In this document: positions 33,904 to 44,792 of the stretch, piece by piece | Layout of the letters: every line of letters starts with the position of its first letter | Numbering within the stretch: position 1 is the stretch's first letter | Assembly: GCA_021158245.1 (NCBI GenBank) | Contig: JAGGVB010000088.1 | Span: 1-44,792, forward strand | DNA length: 44,792 nt | Reading direction: 5' to 3' | Source: a bacterium | GTDB lineage: Bacteria > Zhuqueibacterota > QNDG01 | Notes under the pieces: model-generated | Database searches by the model: none | Told to the model about the DNA's origin: nothing | The model's input: the letters and a program-made list of their open reading frames with translations, nothing else | Made by a program: the position numbers and the translations under genes

Positions 33904-35232
33904 ATGTACAAAGAGCTAAAAGTGTTGATAGATGCATTTTTTAGTGACAAAACAAGAGTGATAAAAATAAAAAAAGGTGAGACGTTTTTAAAGCAGGGAA
34001 TTTTTAATGACAGGCTTTTTTTTGTAAAAGAGGGCGAGTTTGTAGGCTATATTGAAGGGAATAACGGTGAAAGGGAGCTTTTTAGAATTCACAGGAATCA
34101 ATTCCTCGGGGTCTATAGTTTTTTTTCGAAAACATTCAAAAGTTCTGCAACTGTTGTTGCTGTACAGGATAGTACTGTGTCATTTATTGATCAAAATGTG
34201 AAATATGATATTGACCACGGAGAAATGAATCTATTTGAGCAATTTATGCCTGTAGTTGTTGAGAATCTGCTCCAGCGGCAAAAGCATGAGATTGAGATAG
34301 CTTCAGAGAAGGAGCAGGCTTTAAAGATGTTGAAGGATGCTGAAAGGCTTTCATCCCTGGGGCAGATGGCAGCAGGAATTGCACATGAACTCAACAACGC
34401 AATATCAGTATTTGGGAGAAACTGTGCGTGGATGAGAAAAAAGATATCTGAACTAATAGACAAAAATAACCAGCAGTATGCTGATTATTTTCGTATCGGA
34501 ATAGAAAAAGGCAGAATGTTTTCATCAAGGCAGGTCAGGCAGAGGACAAAAGAGATTGAAGCGAAGTATGGCTTTAATGAAAGTTTGTCGAACAAGATTG
34601 CACAAACGAGCCTCCCTGTAGATTTTCTTTTAAATGAATCTTTAAAACAAGAAGATATTGAAGAGCTTCTAAATTTTTGGGATATGGGTTCCGCTTTTCA
34701 TGATATCAAGATTGCTACTAAACATGCAGTGCATGTTGTTAAATCAGTACGTGCACTTGCAGAGAAGAAGGGTTCCAGAAGAAGTGATGTTGATATTAAT
34801 GAATCAATTAGACAAGCGCTTTCTTTATTAAGCAGCCCATTGCGTAAAGTGGAAGTTAAATTGGACTTTAAGTATGTCCCAAAGGTTCATGCAAATAAGG
34901 GGGAACTTGTTCAGGTATGGTTAAATATTATTAAGAATGGAATGGAAAGTTTAACTCAGGAAAAGGTAAAAAACGGCAGATTGTCTATATCCACTTATTT
35001 GCAAAATAATAAAATTGTTGTTACTATTGAAGATAACGGCCCTGGAATACCAAATGATCTACTGCCGAAGATATGGCAGCCTGATGTAACAACAAAGGAG
35101 AAAGGTATTGCGTTCGGACTTGGCCTCGGCCTGACAATAGTTGAAAGAATTGTAAAGAGTTATAACGGTGATATAGGTGTAAAGAGCAGGCCGGGGAAAA
35201 CTGTTTTTACAATCAGCATGCCGATATTGTAA
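33904..35232 (+). CDS. Histidine kinase with N-terminal cyclic-nucleotide-binding-type domain
   Basis: 442 residues, no membrane segment. Residues about 10-115 form a cNMP-binding (Crp-type) beta-barrel (KIKKGETFLKQG, FFVKEGEFVGYI). A helix linker leads to the H-box LSSLGQMAAGIAHELNNAIS with His161. An unusually long stretch (about 170-270) lies between the H-box and the second dimerisation helix. The HATPase domain has the N box (NIIKNGMES), G1 (EDNGPGIP) and G2 (GLGLGLTI). A soluble kinase sensing a cytoplasmic ligand, perhaps a cyclic nucleotide. No response regulator is adjacent on this strand. It lies tail-to-tail with the chemotaxis cluster (67 bases apart), so a functional link is possible but not shown. 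Confidence 0.88.
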   Translation: MYKELKVLIDAFFSDKTRVIKIKKGETFLKQGIFNDRLFFVKEGEFVGYIEGNNGERELFRIHRNQFLGVYSFFSKTFKSSATVVAVQDSTVSFIDQNVKYDIDHGEMNLFEQFMPVVVENLLQRQKHEIEIASEKEQALKMLKDAERLSSLGQMAAGIAHELNNAISVFGRNCAWMRKKISELIDKNNQQYADYFRIGIEKGRMFSSRQVRQRTKEIEAKYGFNESLSNKIAQTSLPVDFLLNESLKQEDIEELLNFWDMGSAFHDIKIATKHAVHVVKSVRALAEKKGSRRSDVDINESIRQALSLLSSPLRKVEVKLDFKYVPKVHANKGELVQVWLNIIKNGMESLTQEKVKNGRLSISTYLQNNKIVVTIEDNGPGIPNDLLPKIWQPDVTTKEKGIAFGLGLGLTIVERIVKSYNGDIGVKSRPGKTVFTISMPIL

Positions 35233-35299: not shown

Positions 35300-35761
35300 T
35301 TATTTTTTAATTTTTTTCATAAGTACAATACCCGTTTCGGTGTTGAATTTTATTTTCCGACCTTGATTACCACCAACATCAGAAGCAATTATAGGAATAT
35401 TTAGTTCTTTCAACATACTGAATGCAATTTCACAATTTCTCTCTCCAATTTGAAATAAATTTTGGGTGTTGCCAATTACAGAAGCACCTCCAAATATTTT
35501 AGCTTGAAGATCAGACTGTCTTGATCCCATTTTTAACATTTTTTCAAAAAGTTTTTGAATAGCAATATTTCCAAACTTTGGTGATGCAAGCCCTGTACCA
35601 TTCCACAAATCAAGCTGATAATGGTTAATACCACCCATTCGGTTTACTGGGTCGTAGAGGCACACAGCCACACAGGATCCCAATACAGTTGATACAATAT
35701 AAGGATGTGGATCAGCAAAAATTGCCCCCCCATAAAGATAATGTTCTTTAATTAAAGGCAT
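35300..35761 (-). CDS. cheD: Chemoreceptor glutamine deamidase CheD
   Basis: Deamidates glutamines of chemoreceptors and in some bacteria interacts with CheC. 153 residues. The active-site Cys lies in LGSCVAVCLYDP (Cys at about 30) with the catalytic His in GGINHYQL (about 47). The FGGA block and GERN are also typical. Last gene of the chemosensory operon, 8 bases after the kinase-like gene, without a visible ribosome site, so translation is probably coupled. Confidence 0.94.
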   Translation of the reverse strand: MPLIKEHYLYGGAIFADPHPYIVSTVLGSCVAVCLYDPVNRMGGINHYQLDLWNGTGLASPKFGNIAIQKLFEKMLKMGSRQSDLQAKIFGGASVIGNTQNLFQIGERNCEIAFSMLKELNIPIIASDVGGNQGRKIKFNTETGIVLMKKIKK

Positions 35762-35769
35762 TTTGTTTT

Positions 35770-36654
35770 TTAAAATAATTCTTCATTAGCATCCAGGGAA
35801 AAACCCTCATCGCTATCTAAAGCTTGAGCTTCTGGAATGGAAACAAGGAAATGACATCCTTTATTTTTTTCACTTTCCAGAGTTAAAGTGCCTTCTAAAA
35901 AATCAATTGTATTTTTTACAACTGACAACCCCAAGCCGTGCCCTTTGTGTGCTTTGGTTATTCCCTGATCGAGCTGCACAAAGCGGTCAAAAATCTTTTC
36001 ATGGTCTGCTTTGTTAATACCTATTCCGTAATCCTTAACAGAAATAGTAAGATTGTTGTTCTGCAGCCAGACCTTGATGTCTATTTTATCACTTGTTTGT
36101 CCATACTCAATGGCATTGCTTAAAAGATTTGAAAATATCAAATGTATTTTTTCAGAATCTGTTGTAAATAAAAATGGCTGCCCTTGTTGCTCAGGTAAAT
36201 TAATATCACACTTTATTTCCACTTGCTTTTTTAAAGCAATATGTTTAAAACTTTGAACAGTTCTTAAAATCAGCTCTGTAATATTTACTTTGGAAATGTG
36301 AAGATAGGCCTCTCCAGCCTCTATCTCCGCAGCAGCAAATATTGTTCTTAATTGAAAATCCAGGTCAAATGCTTCAGCATAGATCATCCTGCTCATCTCA
36401 CTTACAGTTTTAGTATCAATTTCATTGTTTCCCATGAGATATTGGGCCATACCCAGAATTGCAGTAAGAGGATTATTAATTTCATTTCTTATATTGGAAA
36501 GAAAATTACCCTTTAATGCTTCTGAATCGGCCAATTTTTGGTTCATAATCAGGAGTTTTTCTTTTACTTCATTCAGTTTAGCAATTGTTCTGTTGTTTTC
36601 CTCAAATCTCCGGTTTAACTCCTGAAGTAAGTCATTATCACTAATATGTTGCAT
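35770..36654 (-). CDS. Histidine-kinase-like protein lacking the phospho-accepting His
   Basis: 294 residues, soluble. A coiled coil (about 5-48) leads to a HisKA-type helix FLSNIRNEINNPLTAILG. In active kinases the aligned triplet is SHE; here it is RNE, so the His position is Asn57 (codon AAT checked). The HATPase domain is intact: N box (SNLLSNAIEYG), G1 (KDYGIGI), F box and G2 (GHGLGLSV). It should bind ATP but cannot autophosphorylate at the usual site. It lies between cheB and cheD, with GGAGG before the ATG. It may act as an allosteric or adaptor protein of the chemosensory complex. I believe similar Asn versions occur in chemotaxis operons of other bacteria, which a search could confirm. 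Confidence 0.88.
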   Translation of the reverse strand: MQHISDNDLLQELNRRFEENNRTIAKLNEVKEKLLIMNQKLADSEALKGNFLSNIRNEINNPLTAILGMAQYLMGNNEIDTKTVSEMSRMIYAEAFDLDFQLRTIFAAAEIEAGEAYLHISKVNITELILRTVQSFKHIALKKQVEIKCDINLPEQQGQPFLFTTDSEKIHLIFSNLLSNAIEYGQTSDKIDIKVWLQNNNLTISVKDYGIGINKADHEKIFDRFVQLDQGITKAHKGHGLGLSVVKNTIDFLEGTLTLESEKNKGCHFLVSIPEAQALDSDEGFSLDANEELF

Positions 36655-36672: not shown

Positions 36673-37740
36673 TTAACTTTTGGCTCTTTTGATAACATGG
36701 GATGCAATTGACTCAAGAGACACAATTTTATCAACACCACCTGCTGCTATTGCCTCTTTTGGCATACCAAAAACAATGCATGATTGTTCATTTTGAGCAA
36801 AATTATATGCACCTGCCTCTTTCATCTCCAGCATGCCTTTAGCACCATCATCACCCATACCTGTCATAATTACACCAATTACATTCTTTCCGCCATATCT
36901 GGCTGCTGACCTGAAAAGCACATCAACTGAGGGGCGGTGTCGGTTCACTAGCGGTCCGTCTTTAACTTCAACATAGTAACGAGCACCACTCCTTTTTAAC
37001 AGCATATGTTTATTCCCAGGCGCAATCAAGGCGTGTCCGCGCAGGACACTGTTGCCGTTTTCAGCTTCTTTAACAGTGATGGCACAAAGGCTGTCCAGCC
37101 TTTCAGCAAAAGATTTAGTGAATTTTTCAGGCATATGCTGAACTATAACTATACCTGGCGAATCCATTGGCATTGCTTGTAGAAAGACACGTAATGCTTC
37201 TGTTCCACCTGTTGACGCACCAACAACAATCACCTTTTCAGTTGTCTTGGCCATTGCATGTCCTGTTATCGCTGGTATTACAGCATCAGCCGAGAGTTTA
37301 GGCACTATTTTTTGTACTTTTACAAGTTTTTTCAAATTCACATGGGAAGCTGCCTTTATTGTATCGCAAATGTGTATTTTCGATTCTTCAAAAAACCCTT
37401 TAATACCAATTTGGGGTTTAGTAATAATATCTACAGCTCCATACCTCATGGCCTGAAGTGCAGTATCTGTACCATCACCAGTCAGACTGGAAACCATAAC
37501 GACTGGTATTGGATGTTGTGACATAATTTTCTTTAGAAAAGTAATGCCGTCCATCTTGGGCATTTCCACATCCAAAGTGATTACATCGGGGCATTCCTTT
37601 TTAATTTTTTGCACAGCAAAATAGGGATCAGATGCAGCAGCAATTACTTCCAGTTCTGGATCGGAATTGATTAGATCACTCAATATCTGACGTACTACTG
37701 CTGAATCATCGACAACCAATACTCTTATCTTTTTGTTCAT
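36673..37740 (-). CDS. cheB: Chemotaxis methylesterase/response regulator CheB
   Basis: Removes methyl groups from receptors when phosphorylated. 355 residues from ATG 37740, preferred over an upstream TTG (37776) because the family starts right before the first receiver strand. Receiver: Asp11-Asp12, phospho-Asp57 ([11 protein letters not shown]). Methylesterase domain: Ser176 (VGASTGG), His202 (VQHMPEKF) and Asp at about 298 (TGMGDDG), all present. Linker about 125-165. Located 90 bases after cheR and 18 before the kinase-like gene, in one direction. Confidence 0.96.
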
Positions 37741-37830
37741 ATCATCACCGTATTTGTTAATGACTGGTAAGTTCAAATGAACATTTTATTCTTTATATTA
37801 TCACACAACTATTTCTCATGTTGAATGATT

Positions 37831-38685
37831 TTATTTTTGATAAACAGTTGGAGCAACAGTTTTAAACTTGGTGTTAAGACCATTTATTGTTTCAGAATGC
37901 CCCATAAAGAGAAAACCACCAGGGATAAGCTGTTCATAAAATTTCTCAACCAATTTTTTTTGTATATCTCTATCAAAATAGATTACTACATTCCTGCAAA
38001 AAATAACTTCAACTTTTTCTTTTAGTCGAAAATTATCAAGAAAGTTTAGTCTCCGGAATATCACTTTTGACCTTAACTCTGGAATTATACGTACAACTTT
38101 ATTTGCCGGGTCTTTACTTTTTAACAAATACTTCTGTTTCATCTTCATTGGTATTGGGTCTATTCGTTCTTTACTGTATATGGCAATACGACCATGTTCT
38201 ATTACTTTAGTTGATATGTCTGTAGCAAGTATTTTAAATTTAAAACTTCTGTTTTTTTCTGCAAAATCACTTAGTACCATTGCCAAAGTGTAGGGTTCTT
38301 CCCCTGTAGAACAGCCTGCACTCCAGAATTTAAAAGGCTCCCGTATTTCTGATGGCCGGTTTTTAATGAGCTCTGGGAGGACGGTGTCAATCAGATATTT
38401 AAAATGGTCTGGTTCTCTAAAGAAATCTGTTTTGTTGGTAGAAACAGCATTTATTAGGTTTATAACTTCATCTTTATCTTCTGTACTCTGAATAAATGCC
38501 CAGTACTCTTCAAAGGAGCTTATCTCCAGAGCACGGAGTCTCTTCATAAGCCTGCTTTGAACCATCAACCTTTTTCCTGGAGGCATTTTAATTCCACACT
38601 CAGATTGGATAAAACTTCCTAATTTTTTAAAAATATTTTCAGAAAGTACAACATCTCTAATTATTGTAGTTTTGGCTTTATACAT
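37831..38685 (-). CDS. cheR: Chemoreceptor methyltransferase CheR
   Basis: Methylates receptor glutamates using S-adenosylmethionine. 284 residues with both parts: the N-terminal all-helical domain (about 13-85, LMVQSRLMKRLRAL) and the catalytic domain with TDFFREPDHF (about 86-95), the SAM motif SAGCSTGEEPYTLA (122-135) and VIFCRNVVIYFD. The beta-subdomain that docks receptor C-terminal tethers is present, matching the possible tether on the soluble receptor encoded upstream. No good ribosome site precedes ATG 38685. A palindrome at 38697-38712 lies just before it. Confidence 0.96.
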   Translation of the reverse strand: MYKAKTTIIRDVVLSENIFKKLGSFIQSECGIKMPPGKRLMVQSRLMKRLRALEISSFEEYWAFIQSTEDKDEVINLINAVSTNKTDFFREPDHFKYLIDTVLPELIKNRPSEIREPFKFWSAGCSTGEEPYTLAMVLSDFAEKNRSFKFKILATDISTKVIEHGRIAIYSKERIDPIPMKMKQKYLLKSKDPANKVVRIIPELRSKVIFRRLNFLDNFRLKEKVEVIFCRNVVIYFDRDIQKKLVEKFYEQLIPGGFLFMGHSETINGLNTKFKTVAPTVYQK

Positions 38686-39098: not shown

Positions 39099-39641
39099 TT
39101 AAGTTGTTTCAGCAACAGCTTCTACTTTTTTTTCTTTTTTCTTTTTACTTTTACCTGAACTACCAGCTTCCTGAACTATAGTAAGTTCATCAGCAGAAAA
39201 GATTTTATTCAGGTTAAGTAGAATTATAAATCCTTCTTCATTTTTGCCCATTCCAGTGATAAATTCCGTATTTAGCCGTGTTCCTATTTTAGGGGCAGGC
39301 TCAATATCATCAGGAAGAAGGTCTATTACTTCATTTACAGAATCTACTAAACAGCCAAGAACAGTAAAATCTCCATCTAATTCTACTTCGACAATAATTA
39401 TACATGTGTCGACTGTTTTTTCTATACAACCCATTCCAAATTTTCTCTTCATGTCTACAATGGGTACAACACTACCACGCAGGTTGATCACGCCACGCAT
39501 AAAGTCAGGTGTTTTAGGCACTTTTGTTATTTTGTCAAAATCCAGTACAGACTGTACTGTGGCAATATCAAAGGCATAAGTCTCTTTATCCAACCTGAAC
39601 GTAATGTATTGGTTGAGTTTACTAAGCCCTTCAACATTCAT
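39099..39641 (-). CDS. cheW: Chemotaxis scaffold protein CheW
   Basis: Couples receptors to CheA. 180 residues; the CheW SH3-like fold covers about 8-155 (YITFRLDKETYAFDIATVQ, GVINLRGSVVPIVDMKRKFG, GMGKNEEGFIILLNLNKIFS). The C-terminal tail (about 160-180) is Lys-rich and low in complexity (KSKKKKEKK). GGAG 8 bases before the ATG supports the start. Follows the receptor gene by 56 bases. Separated from cheR by a 413-base gap with a possible inserted element. Confidence 0.95.
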   Translation of the reverse strand: MNVEGLSKLNQYITFRLDKETYAFDIATVQSVLDFDKITKVPKTPDFMRGVINLRGSVVPIVDMKRKFGMGCIEKTVDTCIIIVEVELDGDFTVLGCLVDSVNEVIDLLPDDIEPAPKIGTRLNTEFITGMGKNEEGFIILLNLNKIFSADELTIVQEAGSSGKSKKKKEKKVEAVAETT

Positions 39642-39697: not shown

Positions 39698-41353
39698 TTA
39701 AAATTTTTCAAATTCCTTATCCTTATTATCATATTCATTGCCATTGCCATTGCCATTGCCATTACTATCAATATCAATGACAACTCCTGATTCTTCTTTT
39801 TCACCTGTTTTTATTCTGGTTTTTTTACCATTTCTTCCAGTTATATGTGATACATTAATTGTATGTTTTTGTTTGTTTATTTCCATTTTATTAGTTTGCT
39901 TTTGTCTAATGACATTGTCTCTAATCTTGAAAAATTCAATGGTTGCCTGAAGCTGCTGCGCCTGAGCGGCAAGTTCTTCGGAAGTTGATGCCATTTCTTC
40001 TGAAGCCGATGCATTCTGCTGTATCACTTTGTCAAGCTGCTGGATAGCTTGATTAACCTGTTCACTTCCAGTACGCTGCTCTGCACTGGAGGCGCTGATT
40101 TCCTGAACAAGTTCTGCTGTTTTCTGAATATCTGGTACCAGTTTGTCAAGCATTTCTCCGGCTTTTTTAGCTACATCAACAGTGTTACCTGCTAAATCAC
40201 TGATTTCATTTGCTGCAGTACCACTGTGCTCTGCTAACTTACGTATTTCTGCAGCAACAACTGCAAAACCCTTACCTGCCTCACCTGCTCTGGCAGCTTC
40301 TATGGCCGCGTTTAGGGCCAGCATATTTGTCTGACGCGCTATCTCATTGATAATATTTATCTTTTCAGCAATATTAACCATTGCACTTACTGCTTCTTTT
40401 ACTGAGCCGCCGCTTTCAATTGCATCTTTTGCAGCTTGCACTGCAATCTTTTCGGTTTGTTGTGCATTATCAGCATTCTGCTGAATATTAGAATCCATCT
40501 CTTCCATGGATGATGAAGCTTCTTCAGTGGAAGCTGCTTGTTCTGTGCTTCCCTGGGACAACTGTTGAGCAGTGGAGCTCAATTCCTCACTGCCTGCAGC
40601 TACATTTTCACCGGCAGAGCGAACTTCTCCTATAACGTTTGAGATATTCTCCAGCATTTCTTGCAGGGCAATCATCAGTTTATCCTCTGAAGATCGTTTT
40701 TCTGTTTTTTGAGTCAGGTCTCCAGCGGCAATTTTTTGTGCCAAAGATATTACTTCATTATCAGCGTAGATAAGCATATTCAGGTTGTTTATAATCCTAT
40801 TGAATTCACCCTTATAATCATCAGTTATCTTCTCAGGAATGTCACCCTTGGAGATGCGGTCTACATACTCGGCTGTCACGTTCAAAGGACCGATAATTGC
40901 GTCAAGTGTGTTGTTTACGCCCTGGATGATCTTGCCAAAATCGCCCATATACTTGTCGGCTTCGCCACGAACATCAAGTTTGCCCTCTACTGCCGCATTT
41001 GCGAGACGGGCTGACTCATCGATCAATCCATTCAAAGCATCTATGCAGACGTTCAGGTTGTTCTTGACTTCGTTAAAATCACCTTTATAATCATCAGTTA
41101 TTTTCTCAGGAATGTCACCCTTGGAGATGCGGTCTACATACTCGGCCGTCACGTTCAAAGGAGAAATGACAGCATCCAGAGTATCATTGACACCTTTTAC
41201 GATTGCAGCAAATTCACCCTGGAATTTGCTGGCATCACCCCGGACATCAAGCTTGCCTTCGATCGCAGCTTTGGTGAGCATTCCGACTTCTGAGGCCAAC
41301 TCACCCAGTTGTTTGTGAAAATTATTGTTTGTTTTTTTTCGTAATCCAAACAT
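39698..41353 (-). CDS. Soluble methyl-accepting chemotaxis protein with tandem HAMP-type repeats
   Basis: 551 residues from ATG 41353, chosen because AAAGGAGA lies just before it. No membrane segment or signal peptide, so it is cytoplasmic. N-terminal two copies of a 91-residue HAMP-like unit ([21 protein letters not shown] at about 68-88 and about 159-179, identical in protein), then a third HAMP, then the signalling coiled coil with hairpin tip [20 protein letters not shown] around residue 350. The tail is a flexible linker with four NG repeats encoded by a hexanucleotide repeat, ending EFEKF, which fits the CheR/CheB tether pattern (aromatic, two residues, aromatic). It probably feeds CheA through CheW encoded next to it. 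The sensed signal is unknown. Confidence 0.94.
39736..39763. repeat. Hexanucleotide repeat in the receptor gene
   Basis: Four full CATTGC units and a partial fifth (plus strand). On the coding strand they encode alternating Asn-Gly in the C-terminal linker of the receptor. Copy-number change would lengthen or shorten the linker without shifting frame. Confidence 0.9.
40812..41162 (-). repeat. Intragenic duplication of 273-bp HAMP unit
   Basis: About 70 bases starting at 40812 recur at 41085 with very few changes (offset 273 bases, 91 codons). The rest of the unit is conserved in protein but diverged in DNA, suggesting an older duplication with a conserved or converted core. Confidence 0.8.
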
Positions 41354-41506
41354 TGTGTTCTCCTTTAAATTTAGATTAATACTTATAAATTGGATATAAA
41401 TCATTCAATTTATCTTCAATCAGTCTTTCGTAATAAGGTGTTCATACAATTTTCCTCCATCTTTATTGATAATTAAAATGTATACAAAAGCTAATAAAAC
41501 TAAATT

Positions 41507-41821
41507 TTATTTTCTCCAAATCCAATTGCCGCTACCGCCATCAACAAAGTTCATCTTTCCCCAAAATCCTTTTGCTGTGAATCTTACACGGTCTGCAATG
41601 ATGGTATCAAACGATTTTTTAAACATCTCAATCGTTTCTTTAGCATAACCGTGTCTTTCAAATTCCGGAAAAATATTTATCGAGTTAATGGTCAGTTTTT
41701 TACCCTCAATTAAACCTCTGACCTTGCCCACCCGGGTCTCACCACGATCAATGTTCATCCAATCAAAATCAGAATTATGCTGTTCACGGGATAGTAGTTT
41801 AAAAGTCAATTTTTCAGACAT
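41507..41821 (-). CDS. Small GNAT-like acetyltransferase
   Basis: 104 residues, shorter than usual GNAT enzymes (about 140 or more), missing much of the N-terminal part. Seen: a beta-strand (LTINSINIFPEF), an acetyl-CoA-loop-like motif ERHGYA (55-60; consensus Q/RxxGxG/A with Glu at the first place) with the following helix (KETIEMFKK), and GFWGKMNF (85-92), which matches the typical GFxKxGF strand-loop. It could acetylate a protein or small molecule. AAGGGA before the ATG. It is 10 bases downstream of a deacetylase-family gene and upstream of the receptor gene. Family assignment is moderate, the substrate unknown. Confidence 0.7.
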   Translation of the reverse strand: MSEKLTFKLLSREQHNSDFDWMNIDRGETRVGKVRGLIEGKKLTINSINIFPEFERHGYAKETIEMFKKSFDTIIADRVRFTAKGFWGKMNFVDGGSGNWIWRK

Positions 41822-41831
41822 TCTTTTTCCC

Positions 41832-42611
41832 TTATAATTTTAATCCGGATAATTCGAACCCCTGGCAGAATGCCAATACATTTCTACCGAGGTCCGGTAG
41901 ATAATATCCACCCTCTAATATGGCAAAGCGCCGTTTATGGCCCATTCTTTTTGTGAATTTATTTAAAATTCTGCCGATCTGATAAAAATCAAAAGTTGTC
42001 AATTTTTTTCCCACATCTTTTTCATAAGAATCGAAGCCGGCAGAAACTGCAACAATATCAACATGCTGAATATCAGCAGTAGTTTCTTCAATAATTTTCA
42101 GATAGTCTTTATTGTTATCAGCATACGGATTCAGAATTTTTGCCTCCTTCCAACCTGAAAGCACATTAATATTTCCATCTCCGGTATGAGCATCAAAATC
42201 CAGCAGGAATGCGCTGTTAATAAATCCATCTTCTTTCAATTTCAAAAGCGCTATGCCTATATTGCAGAACACACAATAACCCCATGCGGAATCTTTTGAG
42301 GCATGATGACCCGGCGGCCGTATGCAGGCAAATGCGGGTTGATCTTTAAGAGCAATCTTAGCTGCTAGTAATGCACCGCCTGCAGATAGAGAGGCCATGT
42401 TAAATAGCTTCGATTTCTTTTTGATTTCTTCAATATAATCCCGTGAATGAGCTAGTGATATATCCTGATAAGAAGCTGGTTCGGGAGTTATAATTTTATA
42501 CTGTTTTTCTTCTTTTAAAGCTTCTATAATACTTTCCATACGATCCGGTATTGAAGCGCTATTTGAAGCATAATCAGAATGTTTAAAATTTTCATGAAAA
42601 ACAATTTGCAT
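41832..42611 (-). CDS. Histone-deacetylase-family amidohydrolase
   Basis: 259 residues. A zinc-dependent arginase/deacetylase fold that removes acetyl groups from lysine or polyamines. Active-site signatures: RPPGHH (98-103; His102-His103), DFDAH (138-142; ligands Asp140, His142), GFDS (Asp193) and LEGGYY (Tyr235). All expected ligands and the catalytic Tyr are present. Class II-like bacterial enzymes include acetoin-utilisation AcuC-type and acetylpolyamine hydrolases; the substrate here cannot be told. The start overlaps the end of the upstream MBL-fold gene by 20 bases and the end is 10 bases before the GNAT-like gene, so the three form a unit inside the chemotaxis cluster. Confidence 0.9.
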   Translation of the reverse strand: MQIVFHENFKHSDYASNSASIPDRMESIIEALKEEKQYKIITPEPASYQDISLAHSRDYIEEIKKKSKLFNMASLSAGGALLAAKIALKDQPAFACIRPPGHHASKDSAWGYCVFCNIGIALLKLKEDGFINSAFLLDFDAHTGDGNINVLSGWKEAKILNPYADNNKDYLKIIEETTADIQHVDIVAVSAGFDSYEKDVGKKLTTFDFYQIGRILNKFTKRMGHKRRFAILEGGYYLPDLGRNVLAFCQGFELSGLKL

Positions 42612-43239
42612 TATTAACAGCCTTTTTCACATTAAGTAATGAAGAACGCAGACGTGCATTACAATTCTGAAACATAGGACTGCCGTGCCCAAAATAGATA
42701 GCACGGACATCCCTGCGAACAAGTTTTTCCATCGCGCTAATAAAACCTTTTTCATAAGTTCCATCAACCGAATCAATTATTATATTTGAATCACCGGCAA
42801 ACAAAACGCCATCTTCCTCACAATACAGACAGATTGAATCGCTGCTATGCCCCGGTGTATAGATTACTTCAAATAGCCTGTCTCCAAGTTTCAAGGTTAC
42901 TCCGTCATATAATTTTTTATAATTAGAGCAATCGTTTTTATTTCTGTGATGCTGGCATTGAGACGGGAAAGGAGTAAATCCGTAAACAACAGGTTTGTAT
43001 GTTTCACAAATCAGCGGCAGCAGCTCGGCATGGTCGTAATGAGAATGAGTCAGAATTACCTGTTCTACCTTTGGCTTGGCTACTCCGGTTCTGGCATTAT
43101 TTATTTTTTCAATTACTAATGAATCTCTGCCGACATCAACAAGTGTGTTAATATCATCAAGAGAATTCCATGTACCCGTAACAAGGTAGACATTGCTTGT
43201 ATATATTTTACTCGCAGTTGTTAAGTTTGTAATTTTCAT
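42592..43239 (-). CDS. Metallo-beta-lactamase-fold hydrolase
   Basis: 215 residues, binuclear metal hydrolase. The motif HSHYDH (His65, His67, Asp69, His70) plus His131 (TPGHSSDS), Asp150 (FAGDS) and His185 (GHGSP) is complete. It resembles glyoxalase II-like thioesterases, but an insertion with HH and two Cys (about 95-104) is unusual. The substrate is unknown. No ribosome site is visible. Its end overlaps the deacetylase gene by 20 bases, so they are translationally coupled. Confidence 0.88.
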   Translation of the reverse strand: MKITNLTTASKIYTSNVYLVTGTWNSLDDINTLVDVGRDSLVIEKINNARTGVAKPKVEQVILTHSHYDHAELLPLICETYKPVVYGFTPFPSQCQHHRNKNDCSNYKKLYDGVTLKLGDRLFEVIYTPGHSSDSICLYCEEDGVLFAGDSNIIIDSVDGTYEKGFISAMEKLVRRDVRAIYFGHGSPMFQNCNARLRSSLLNVKKAVNNANCFS

Positions 43240-43321: not shown

Positions 43322-43951
43322 CTACCTTACTGCTATTAACCACCTGAACGGCAGCATTTCTAATATCTGTTGATTTTCAACTTCAAACCCTGTCTGTTTA
43401 AATTTTTTTTCATACATCGCACATCTATCAGAATATGAATCTATAGTATCAGTGCCCATATATGATGGTATCAATGCAAGATTAAAACCCTCAATTGTGC
43501 AATAATTTCTTATTTTATATTCAATTTCCAGAATATTGTTTTTGTAACTCGCCGGTTTTTCGGCAACTAATATTTCTCCTTTTTGCAATACAGGTTTTTT
43601 CTCAAATACGTCCGCACATTGAAATTTGAGGTCACACTTCACCATCTTTCTGATATCTTCGGCATAAATGAGAGACTTGTTGTCAATATCAATTGCTGTT
43701 CCATTTACTTGGCCCAATTTGGAAAGTGTCAATGAAGGAATTGCCAGGCCGCACCCAATTTCAATAAATCCCGGCACCGTCAATTTTGATAGTCGTTCTC
43801 CGAATCTGACACCGATTTCGACTAATGAAAACAGAAGGTTATCAGCAATATCCGTACATCCGATTGATTGCACAAAGATTTTATAAATATCCAAAATTTC
43901 AGACCATTCTTCTGAAAAAATTTGTTTAAGTTTTGAATTTATAATTTCCAT
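43322..43951 (-). CDS. Class I SAM-dependent methyltransferase, substrate unknown
   Basis: 209 residues. A helical N-terminal segment precedes the SAM motif FIEIGCGLAIPSLTLSKLG (62-80) and a conserved acidic residue after strand two (GTAIDIDNKS). The fold resembles small-molecule or protein methyltransferases of the PrmA/METTL type. It starts within the stop of the upstream CheR-like gene (TAATG), so the two are translationally coupled. Its place inside the chemosensory operon suggests a role there, but nothing in the sequence names the substrate. Confidence 0.8.
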   Translation of the reverse strand: MEIINSKLKQIFSEEWSEILDIYKIFVQSIGCTDIADNLLFSLVEIGVRFGERLSKLTVPGFIEIGCGLAIPSLTLSKLGQVNGTAIDIDNKSLIYAEDIRKMVKCDLKFQCADVFEKKPVLQKGEILVAEKPASYKNNILEIEYKIRNYCTIEGFNLALIPSYMGTDTIDSYSDRCAMYEKKFKQTGFEVENQQILEMLPFRWLIAVR

Positions 43952-44553
43952 TATACCTTTCGGAATAACTGAGCGTCAGATGTTACCCGTGTAAAAAGAT
44001 GAACTGCTTCTTTGGGAAGTCTCTGTGTCTGTTCTGTGATAAAAAAGCCTCCCGGAGTCAGTGTATTATGAAACATTTTGATAACTTTAATCCGCTCTTC
44101 GTATTTCAAATGAAGTAAAACATTTTTACAAACAATCATACTGAAATTTTCACCAACCGGTTCTAATGTTAGCAAATCATGCCTTTGGTACTGAACACGG
44201 TCTTTAATTAAATGATCAATCTGATAGTGTCCTGCTTTTCCATTTGGTTTAAAATATTTTTCAAACAAATCTTTTGGTATCCGCTTAAGCTCCTCCCATG
44301 GATAGACACCATCGATAATTATTTTTTCAAAAAGGTTGCTTCCATCAATATCTGTTGCATAAATCTGAAGGTTTTTAAAAGCAAATCTCCCCATGTTTTC
44401 GGCAAAAAGGATAGCGAGAGTATAAGGCTCCGGTCCCATTGCACAGCCGGCATCCCAAATTTTTACATTACTGCGCCCAGCCACCAATGGGGCCATATTT
44501 TTTACTCCCAGCTCAAGTGTATGTAAATCTCTAAAAAAATATGTAAATGCCAT
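43951..44553 (-). CDS. CheR-like methyltransferase without the N-terminal domain
   Basis: 200 residues. Starts directly at the catalytic domain: TYFFRDLHTLE (about 4-14), SAM motif DAGCAMGPEPYTLA (34-47), IYATDID, and MIVCKNVLLHL. The N-terminal all-helical domain that recognises receptor methylation sites is absent, and the preceding gene ends 6 bases upstream, so it is natural and not a window artefact. SAM-motif residues are close to CheR. It is in addition to the complete cheR at 37831. It may modify other proteins or need a partner for substrate recognition. Confidence 0.85.
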   Translation of the reverse strand: MAFTYFFRDLHTLELGVKNMAPLVAGRSNVKIWDAGCAMGPEPYTLAILFAENMGRFAFKNLQIYATDIDGSNLFEKIIIDGVYPWEELKRIPKDLFEKYFKPNGKAGHYQIDHLIKDRVQYQRHDLLTLEPVGENFSMIVCKNVLLHLKYEERIKVIKMFHNTLTPGGFFITEQTQRLPKEAVHLFTRVTSDAQLFRKV

Positions 44554-44559
44554 AATCCT

Positions 44560-44792
44560 TTATTCCTCATTTTCAAAACATGAAAACGCCAGTTTTTTAT
44601 TTTTTGTTTCTAATACCTTTTCCACCAGCCGTTGAACATCTAAAATTAGTGCGACTGTGCCATCCCCGAGAATAGTTGCTCCTGATAATCCCTCTACATC
44701 CCGGTACATATTGCCCAATGTTTTGATTACAATCTGTTGTTTGCCGATGATATGGTCAACAGCAAAGCCCACTCGCTGCCCGTTGATTTTAG
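44560..44792 (-). CDS. cheA: Chemotaxis histidine kinase CheA, C-terminal end only
   Basis: Only the last 77 codons are in the window; the frame is open to the right edge (residues KINGQRVGFAVDHIIGKQQI before and after the first possible GTG at 44772). It matches the CheW-like regulatory domain of CheA (VGFAVDHIIGKQQIVIK, LSGATILGDGTVALILDVQRL), which binds CheW and receptors. A short tail ends in ENEE. First gene seen of the minus-strand chemosensory cluster; the catalytic parts lie outside. A long CheW protein would be the alternative, but the LGDGTVALILD block favours CheA. Confidence 0.85.
   Translation of the reverse strand, partial: KINGQRVGFAVDHIIGKQQIVIKTLGNMYRDVEGLSGATILGDGTVALILDVQRLVEKVLETKNKKLAFSCFENEE

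Follow-up and report, generated by a model that had tools for sequence, protein, structure and literature searches.

A GNAT-fold protein, a short HDAC-family protein and an MBL-fold protein inside a bacterial chemosensory cluster: a candidate accessory acetylation module

The window, by which we mean the whole of contig C88 of genome G000 (44,792 bp, open reading frames called mechanically), carries three genes that form one tight operon on the minus strand, placed between cheA and a short cheR on one side and a receptor gene on the other. They encode an MBL-fold metallohydrolase (42592-43239, 215 aa), a short HDAC-family deacetylase (41832-42611, 259 aa) and a GNAT-fold acetyltransferase (41507-41821, 104 aa), which we refer to as MBL, HDAC and GNAT. 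The MBL and HDAC genes overlap by 20 bp, and the gap between HDAC and GNAT is 10 bp. Upstream lie the C-terminal end of cheA (44554-44792), at which the contig stops, a short cheR gene (43951-44553, 200 aa), whose product we call CheR', and a gene for a SAM-methyltransferase-like protein (43322-43951, weak match to Methyltransf_25). A complete CheA is encoded on the syntenic contig L037 of the same-genus genome G001. Downstream follow the genes for a cytoplasmic receptor (MCP, 39698-41404; two HAMP_2, HAMP and MCPsignal domains), a CheW with a Lys-rich tail (39099-39641) and a canonical CheR including CheR_N (37831-38685), both recognised by profile matches, then CheB (36673-37776; receiver and methylesterase by sequence), and finally a histidine kinase (35770-36654) and CheD (35300-35761), each identified from its reading frame and a profile match. 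All of these genes are on the minus strand. A further histidine kinase gene, with an N-terminal cyclic-nucleotide-binding domain (33904-35232), is on the opposite strand and converges on the che cluster.

The first-pass annotation of this DNA had described the GNAT, HDAC and MBL genes as closely spaced or overlapping on one strand within a chemosensory cluster, and both the reading frames and the profile matches agree with that description. The GC content of the three genes (0.37-0.38) was like that of the remainder of the contig (0.385), and a recent insertion of the three genes was rejected on this ground.

HDAC matched the PF00850 (Hist_deacetyl) profile with 126.3 bits, far above the cut-off of 27.9. 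The predicted structure was of moderate quality (pLDDT 77), and its top Foldseek matches were HDAC6, HDAC8 and HDAC10 (TMq about 0.7-0.8). The S-x-H...YPGTG loop is gone from the subfamily to which HDAC belongs, which has about 23 residues fewer than the ordinary HDACs of the same order. In HDAC8, the region of the YPGTG loop, which is not catalytic, coordinates potassium and lines part of the tunnel. The shortened loops probably make the pocket more open. The catalytic set (H102, H103, D138, D140, H142, D194 and Y236) was invariant in an alignment of 15 sequences, confirming that the active site is complete, as had been claimed at first pass. Since every catalytic feature is present, we regard the short HDAC as a variant inside the HDAC family. 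The motifs RPPGHH and EGGY were likewise invariant in the 15 sequences. Motifs of this kind (RPPXHH / EGGY) have been tied to the removal of acetyl, not longer acyl, groups from lysines or polyamines (Graf et al., PMC11532494). HDAC carries the motifs expected of acetyl-specific classical deacetylases, and deacetylase activity is predicted from its sequence.

No second HDAC was found in the genome to which the window belongs. Three genomes of the same order (G002, G007 and G011) encode HDACs of ordinary length, about 30-33% identical to the protein studied here and without adjacent GNAT or che genes, and these were not accepted as members of the module. Genomes that carry the module also encode short HDACs of a sister family (L098-L103; about 40% identity), which were unlinked to GNAT or che genes.

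GNAT had no Pfam match, and all curated profiles scored below their cut-offs, including the NCBIfam profile for YlbP-like acetyltransferases (E 1.6e-5). Its AlphaFold model reached a pLDDT of 92 and found 34 matches at E<=0.001 in Foldseek, nearly all of them GNATs and several of them complexes with CoA. The YlbP-CoA complex 2pr1 was among the top fold matches, and no solved structure was closer in sequence (E 0.001). YlbP is a small GNAT of about 160 aa that is not known to be linked to che genes. An alignment of 22 family members revealed invariant residues and the motifs PEF-x-x-x-G-[YLF]-[GA] and AxGFWxxMxF. As modelled, the protein has a GNAT fold with the CoA-binding motif A and motif B that characterise the GNAT superfamily. 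The first-pass annotation had made its proposal depend on an acetyl-CoA site, and structure prediction speaks for such a site, in that the structures nearest to the fold bind CoA. GNAT is a candidate writer that is predicted to transfer acetyl groups. No members on viruses or plasmids were found.

MBL matched the Lactamase_B profile with 75 bits and resembled glyoxalase-II and lactonase-type hydrolases. Its metal ligands (HxHxDH, H131, D150 and H185) were invariant in 11 relatives. Membership in the ODP family was rejected because the score against the ODP profile PF19583 (18.2 bits) lay below the cut-off of 27.2. The ODP protein of Treponema denticola, going by the name of its Pfam family, presumably has an MBL fold. 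The gene for the methyltransferase-like protein, which separates CheR' from MBL, is so far shared only with the same-genus genome G001, and no match to it was found in any other module locus.

CheR' contains the SAM-binding domain of CheR proteins (PF01739, 133.5 bits) with an invariant SAM motif, and is N-terminally truncated, without CheR_N. Stand-alone CheR' proteins have His in place of the Tyr of the CRNVxIYF motif and retain the Arg. In our reading of the alignment, this Tyr probably corresponds to the essential catalytic Tyr. In one locus (L096, 6045-6998), CheR' and GNAT are a single protein of 318 aa. The neighbours of this fusion gene encode a TRAP transporter and acyl-CoA ligase-like proteins, not other che proteins. 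Across 11 loci, the pairwise distances of CheR' and GNAT correlated with r=0.89, as expected for joint inheritance, a correlation that by itself is no proof of interaction. Of the plasmid matches to CheR', two (H1 and H4) were examined; with 759 and 413 aa as judged from their coordinates, they are longer than CheR' and were set aside as ordinary CheR proteins.

The receptor has neither a sensor domain, in line with the earlier remark that it lacked an obvious sensor, nor a transmembrane segment (the most hydrophobic stretch of 19 residues reaches 1.03 on the Kyte-Doolittle scale). Its C-terminus consists of a Lys-rich linker followed by the tether-like pentapeptide EFEKF. The receptors of relatives also end in pentapeptides (xFxxF/Y) that resemble CheR tethers, and the preceding linker is Lys-rich in most of them. 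The Lys-rich tail of CheW, which the first-pass annotation had put forward as a possible acetylation target, was absent from the CheWs of four relatives and was dropped as a candidate since it is not conserved. Because the CheW tail is unconserved, and because the receptors have Lys-rich linkers and tether-like ends, the Lys-rich C-terminal linker of the receptor appears from these sequences to be a better candidate target than the CheW tail, and the best one that we can name.

Conservation of the gene arrangement was surveyed with HDAC in 84,980 species genomes and with GNAT in about 1,300 whole genomes; CheB also served as a query in the locus searches. The nine closest HDAC relatives (56-71% identity) came from Latescibacterota, delta-proteobacterial lineages, Chloroflexota and Methylomirabilota, and in 9/9 a gene of this same GNAT family was located directly downstream. 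The GNAT family itself is rare. Of 388 genomes related to that of the window, one contained it; the counts were 16 of 390 for the class that contains the Desulfobacteraceae, 1/64 for the phylum of L045, 2/244 for the class of L052 and 3/247 for the phylum of G389. Altogether 26 GNAT loci were collected, and 17 of them (the window, L045, L047, L078-L090 and L095) adjoin chemosensory genes; these counts start from loci that bear GNAT, many of them on short contigs, and outside the Desulfobacteraceae-containing class they rest on few genomes. CheR' neighbours the GNAT module in 13 of the 17 (the window, L045, L079-L081, L083-L088, L090 and L095). The usual order there is CheR'-MBL-[HDAC]-GNAT, which recurs in several phyla, with genes for MCP, CheW, CheD, CheR, CheB and CheA nearby. 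The fullest locus, L081, encodes MCP, CheR', MBL, HDAC, GNAT, CheR, CheD, a receiver, CheB, CheA, CheY and CheX. In L078, a flagellin gene lies next to cheD and the HDAC-GNAT pair. The locus L046 is truncated where its contig ends.

Linkage to che genes in other genomes, which the first-pass annotation had looked to as a check on its proposal, was thus found in several phyla and extended to a CheR'-GNAT fusion. In view of the recurrent order across phyla, the fusion with CheR' and the ordinary GC content, insertion by chance is unlikely, as is a metabolic unit with only a passing presence here, and the earlier suggestion of an acetylpolyamine or acetoin unit that merely inserted here is disfavoured. 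It follows from the survey that, in the majority of its hosts, the module is part of chemosensing.

A GNAT sub-clade (support 100/99) is found mostly outside che clusters. At L048 and L050-L053, its HDAC-GNAT genes stand beside genes for histidine kinases, beside one for a Cache sensor, or among unrelated genes. The first-pass annotation would have been contradicted by genes that are linked in relatives but away from che genes, and this situation does occur, confined to the sub-clade, where HDAC-GNAT pairs without che genes were found at L048 and L050-L052. The pair at L049 lies about 1.2 kb from a Cache-MCP gene, the one at L047 adjoins cheD, and GNAT stands alone at L094.

HDAC is the less constant member of the module. 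Ten of the 17 loci linked to che genes have an adjacent and apparently intact HDAC gene, that of L078 being split by a contig end, and the gene was missing from six of the 17 (L084, L085, L086, L088, L090 and L095) as well as from the fusion locus L096. When L096 is counted as an 18th che- or CheR'-linked locus, HDAC is missing or broken in 8/18, while GNAT stays, as a fragment only in L090. We therefore consider CheR'-GNAT to be the constant core. The genomes lacking the short HDAC retain only ordinary or sister HDACs. In two loci, HDAC is broken by apparent stops or frameshifts beside an intact GNAT (L087:1132-1810 and L053:8001-8607). At L090 (8011-8130, on a 4.07 Mb contig of G477), CheR' is followed by a C-terminal GNAT fragment only, which suggests decay of GNAT in this genome. 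It follows that HDAC and GNAT form a pair independently of the rest of the module, which fits a writer and an eraser, and that the eraser is dispensable.

The same-genus genome G001 seemed at first sight to lack HDAC and GNAT. However, its assembly breaks between residue 65 of MBL (L037, C227) and the C-terminus of the MCP (L041, C12), and the gap covers HDAC, GNAT and most of the MCP, with flanks that are 94-95% identical to the window. With an assembly gap exactly over both genes, G001 was not accepted as a relative without them.

Taken together, the genes very probably constitute an accessory module that in some manner serves chemosensing. Because they belong to chemosensing in most hosts and include an HDAC-GNAT pair with a dispensable eraser, we favour an accessory acetylation module of a cytoplasmic array, built around a CheR'-GNAT core. 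GNAT would transfer acetyl groups from acetyl-CoA to lysine residues of the array, most likely those in the C-terminal linker of the receptor. CheR' would recruit GNAT to the receptor or work jointly with it, HDAC would be an optional eraser of the acetyl marks, and MBL a third, usually present partner acting as a hydrolase or a metal-based sensor. Through acetylation, kinase activity would then depend on acetyl-CoA status, in addition to adaptation by CheR, CheB and CheD. This complete mechanism, with GNAT as writer and HDAC as eraser docked with CheR', is put forward tentatively, at somewhat less than an even chance; we infer enzymatic activity, a protein rather than a small-molecule target, the receptor as this target, and the sign of the effect. 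The writer-eraser module of the first-pass annotation thus survives in part, upheld by the linkage, the fusion, the catalytic residues and the GNAT fold, and qualified by an HDAC that is not obligatory and by a pair that also occurs outside che clusters.

GNAT and HDAC could equally have a small-molecule substrate. In a pathway of ligand metabolism, they would acetylate and deacetylate a small amine, for instance a polyamine, MBL would hydrolyse an ester or thioester, and the receptor would read the resulting signal. RPPGHH and EGGY are indeed common to the cluster 4 polyamine deacetylases (PMC11532494), HDAC10 and acetylpolyamine amidohydrolases occur among the sequence matches of HDAC and HDAC10 among its fold matches, the shortened loops suggest an open pocket, and MBL resembles hydrolases of a suitable type. 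However, we recognised no biosynthetic gene, for polyamines, acetoin or anything else, that accompanies the module, the fusion of CheR' with GNAT speaks for an activity directed at, or located at, the array, and the receptor is without a ligand-binding domain, so that we consider this explanation rather unlikely. The same lack of a sensor domain would suit a receptor served by detachable metabolite sensors, with CheR' reading SAM, GNAT acetyl-CoA, and MBL metal or oxygen, all by binding the receptor and not by catalysis. CheR' without CheR_N and the motif Tyr fits such a role, and there are precedents in Treponema, where CheW-CheRlike is structural and the ODP oxygen sensor, placed by Pfam in the beta-lactamase fold, works with a sensor-less MCP (PMC7666581). 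Retention of all catalytic ligands in HDAC and MBL without exception argues against pure sensors, as do the HxHxDH motif of MBL with its sub-threshold ODP score (18.2 vs 27.2 bits) and the Arg and SAM motif kept by CheR'; we judge this account distinctly unlikely.

An AcuA/AcuC-type pair that controls acetyl-CoA synthetase, with its che location incidental, would share the operon logic of a GNAT with an HDAC (PMC13039410), and such a pair would be compatible with the finding of only one HDAC in the genome and of some pairs outside che clusters. HDAC nevertheless has RPPGHH/EGGY instead of the AcuC motifs, no acuB or acs reading frame was recognised within the 44.8 kb window, and the recurrent che linkage and the CheR' fusion would be left unexplained. 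This possibility is very improbable.

Broader still is the idea that a sensor-less receptor is told the state of the cell by partners that use cofactors, GNAT with acetyl-CoA, CheR' with SAM and MBL with metal or oxygen, while HDAC resets the system. We think it unlikely; if it were true, the array would integrate central metabolism directly, via modification or binding. More generally, the recurrence of this gene set in chemosensory loci of unrelated bacteria suggests acetylation, or the level of acetyl-CoA, as a means by which some sensory arrays are tuned. A conserved che-linked GNAT/HDAC module with a linked or fused CheR-like protein would be a dedicated, genetically encoded link between acetyl-CoA status and chemosensing, and its few proteins allow this question to be put to the test. 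For annotation, the analysis further delimits two groups, a subfamily of short HDACs and a family of minimal GNATs. A literature search, in which subscription papers were thinly covered, found no paper on GNAT or HDAC in che clusters or on this combination.

Several known systems resemble parts of the module. In Escherichia coli, the acetylation state of CheY alters the chemotaxis response, and CobB deacetylates CheY, whereas the acetyltransferase was left open (PMC2883070). Acetylation of a chemotaxis protein matters in that system as it would here, but the candidate enzymes described here are encoded inside the che cluster. CobB, moreover, is an NAD-dependent sirtuin and a general deacetylase that also acts on Acs. 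YlbP, a small GNAT, is CoA-bound in the structure 2pr1 and is longer than the 104 aa of GNAT. The acuABC operon of Bacillus subtilis is similar in that a GNAT (AcuA) and a Zn-dependent HDAC-family protein (AcuC) are encoded in one operon, in which they exert opposing control of AcsA acetylation (PMC13039410); here, the same pairing is seen in the window and in all nine close HDAC relatives. The motifs set the two apart, since AcuC belongs to cluster 2 with XGGLHH/(G/A)GGY (GGGLHH/GGGY in AcuC itself; PMC11532494), not RPPGHH/EGGY, and the module differs further in its lack of acuB and acs, its chemosensory context and its minimal GNAT. The F2 array of Treponema denticola is strikingly similar with respect to a CheR-like protein without the normal features of receptor methylation, an MBL fold, and a receptor without sensor or transmembrane segment. 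There, CheW-CheRlike is needed for array integrity and binds SAM, its catalytic residues having been lost, and ODP is an oxygen sensor coupled to the sensor-less MCP TDE2496 (PMC7666581). In the module described here, by contrast, CheR' is separate from CheW and retains the Arg, MBL has HxHxDH and scores below the ODP cut-off, and GNAT and HDAC are additions without a counterpart described for the Treponema array (PMC7666581).
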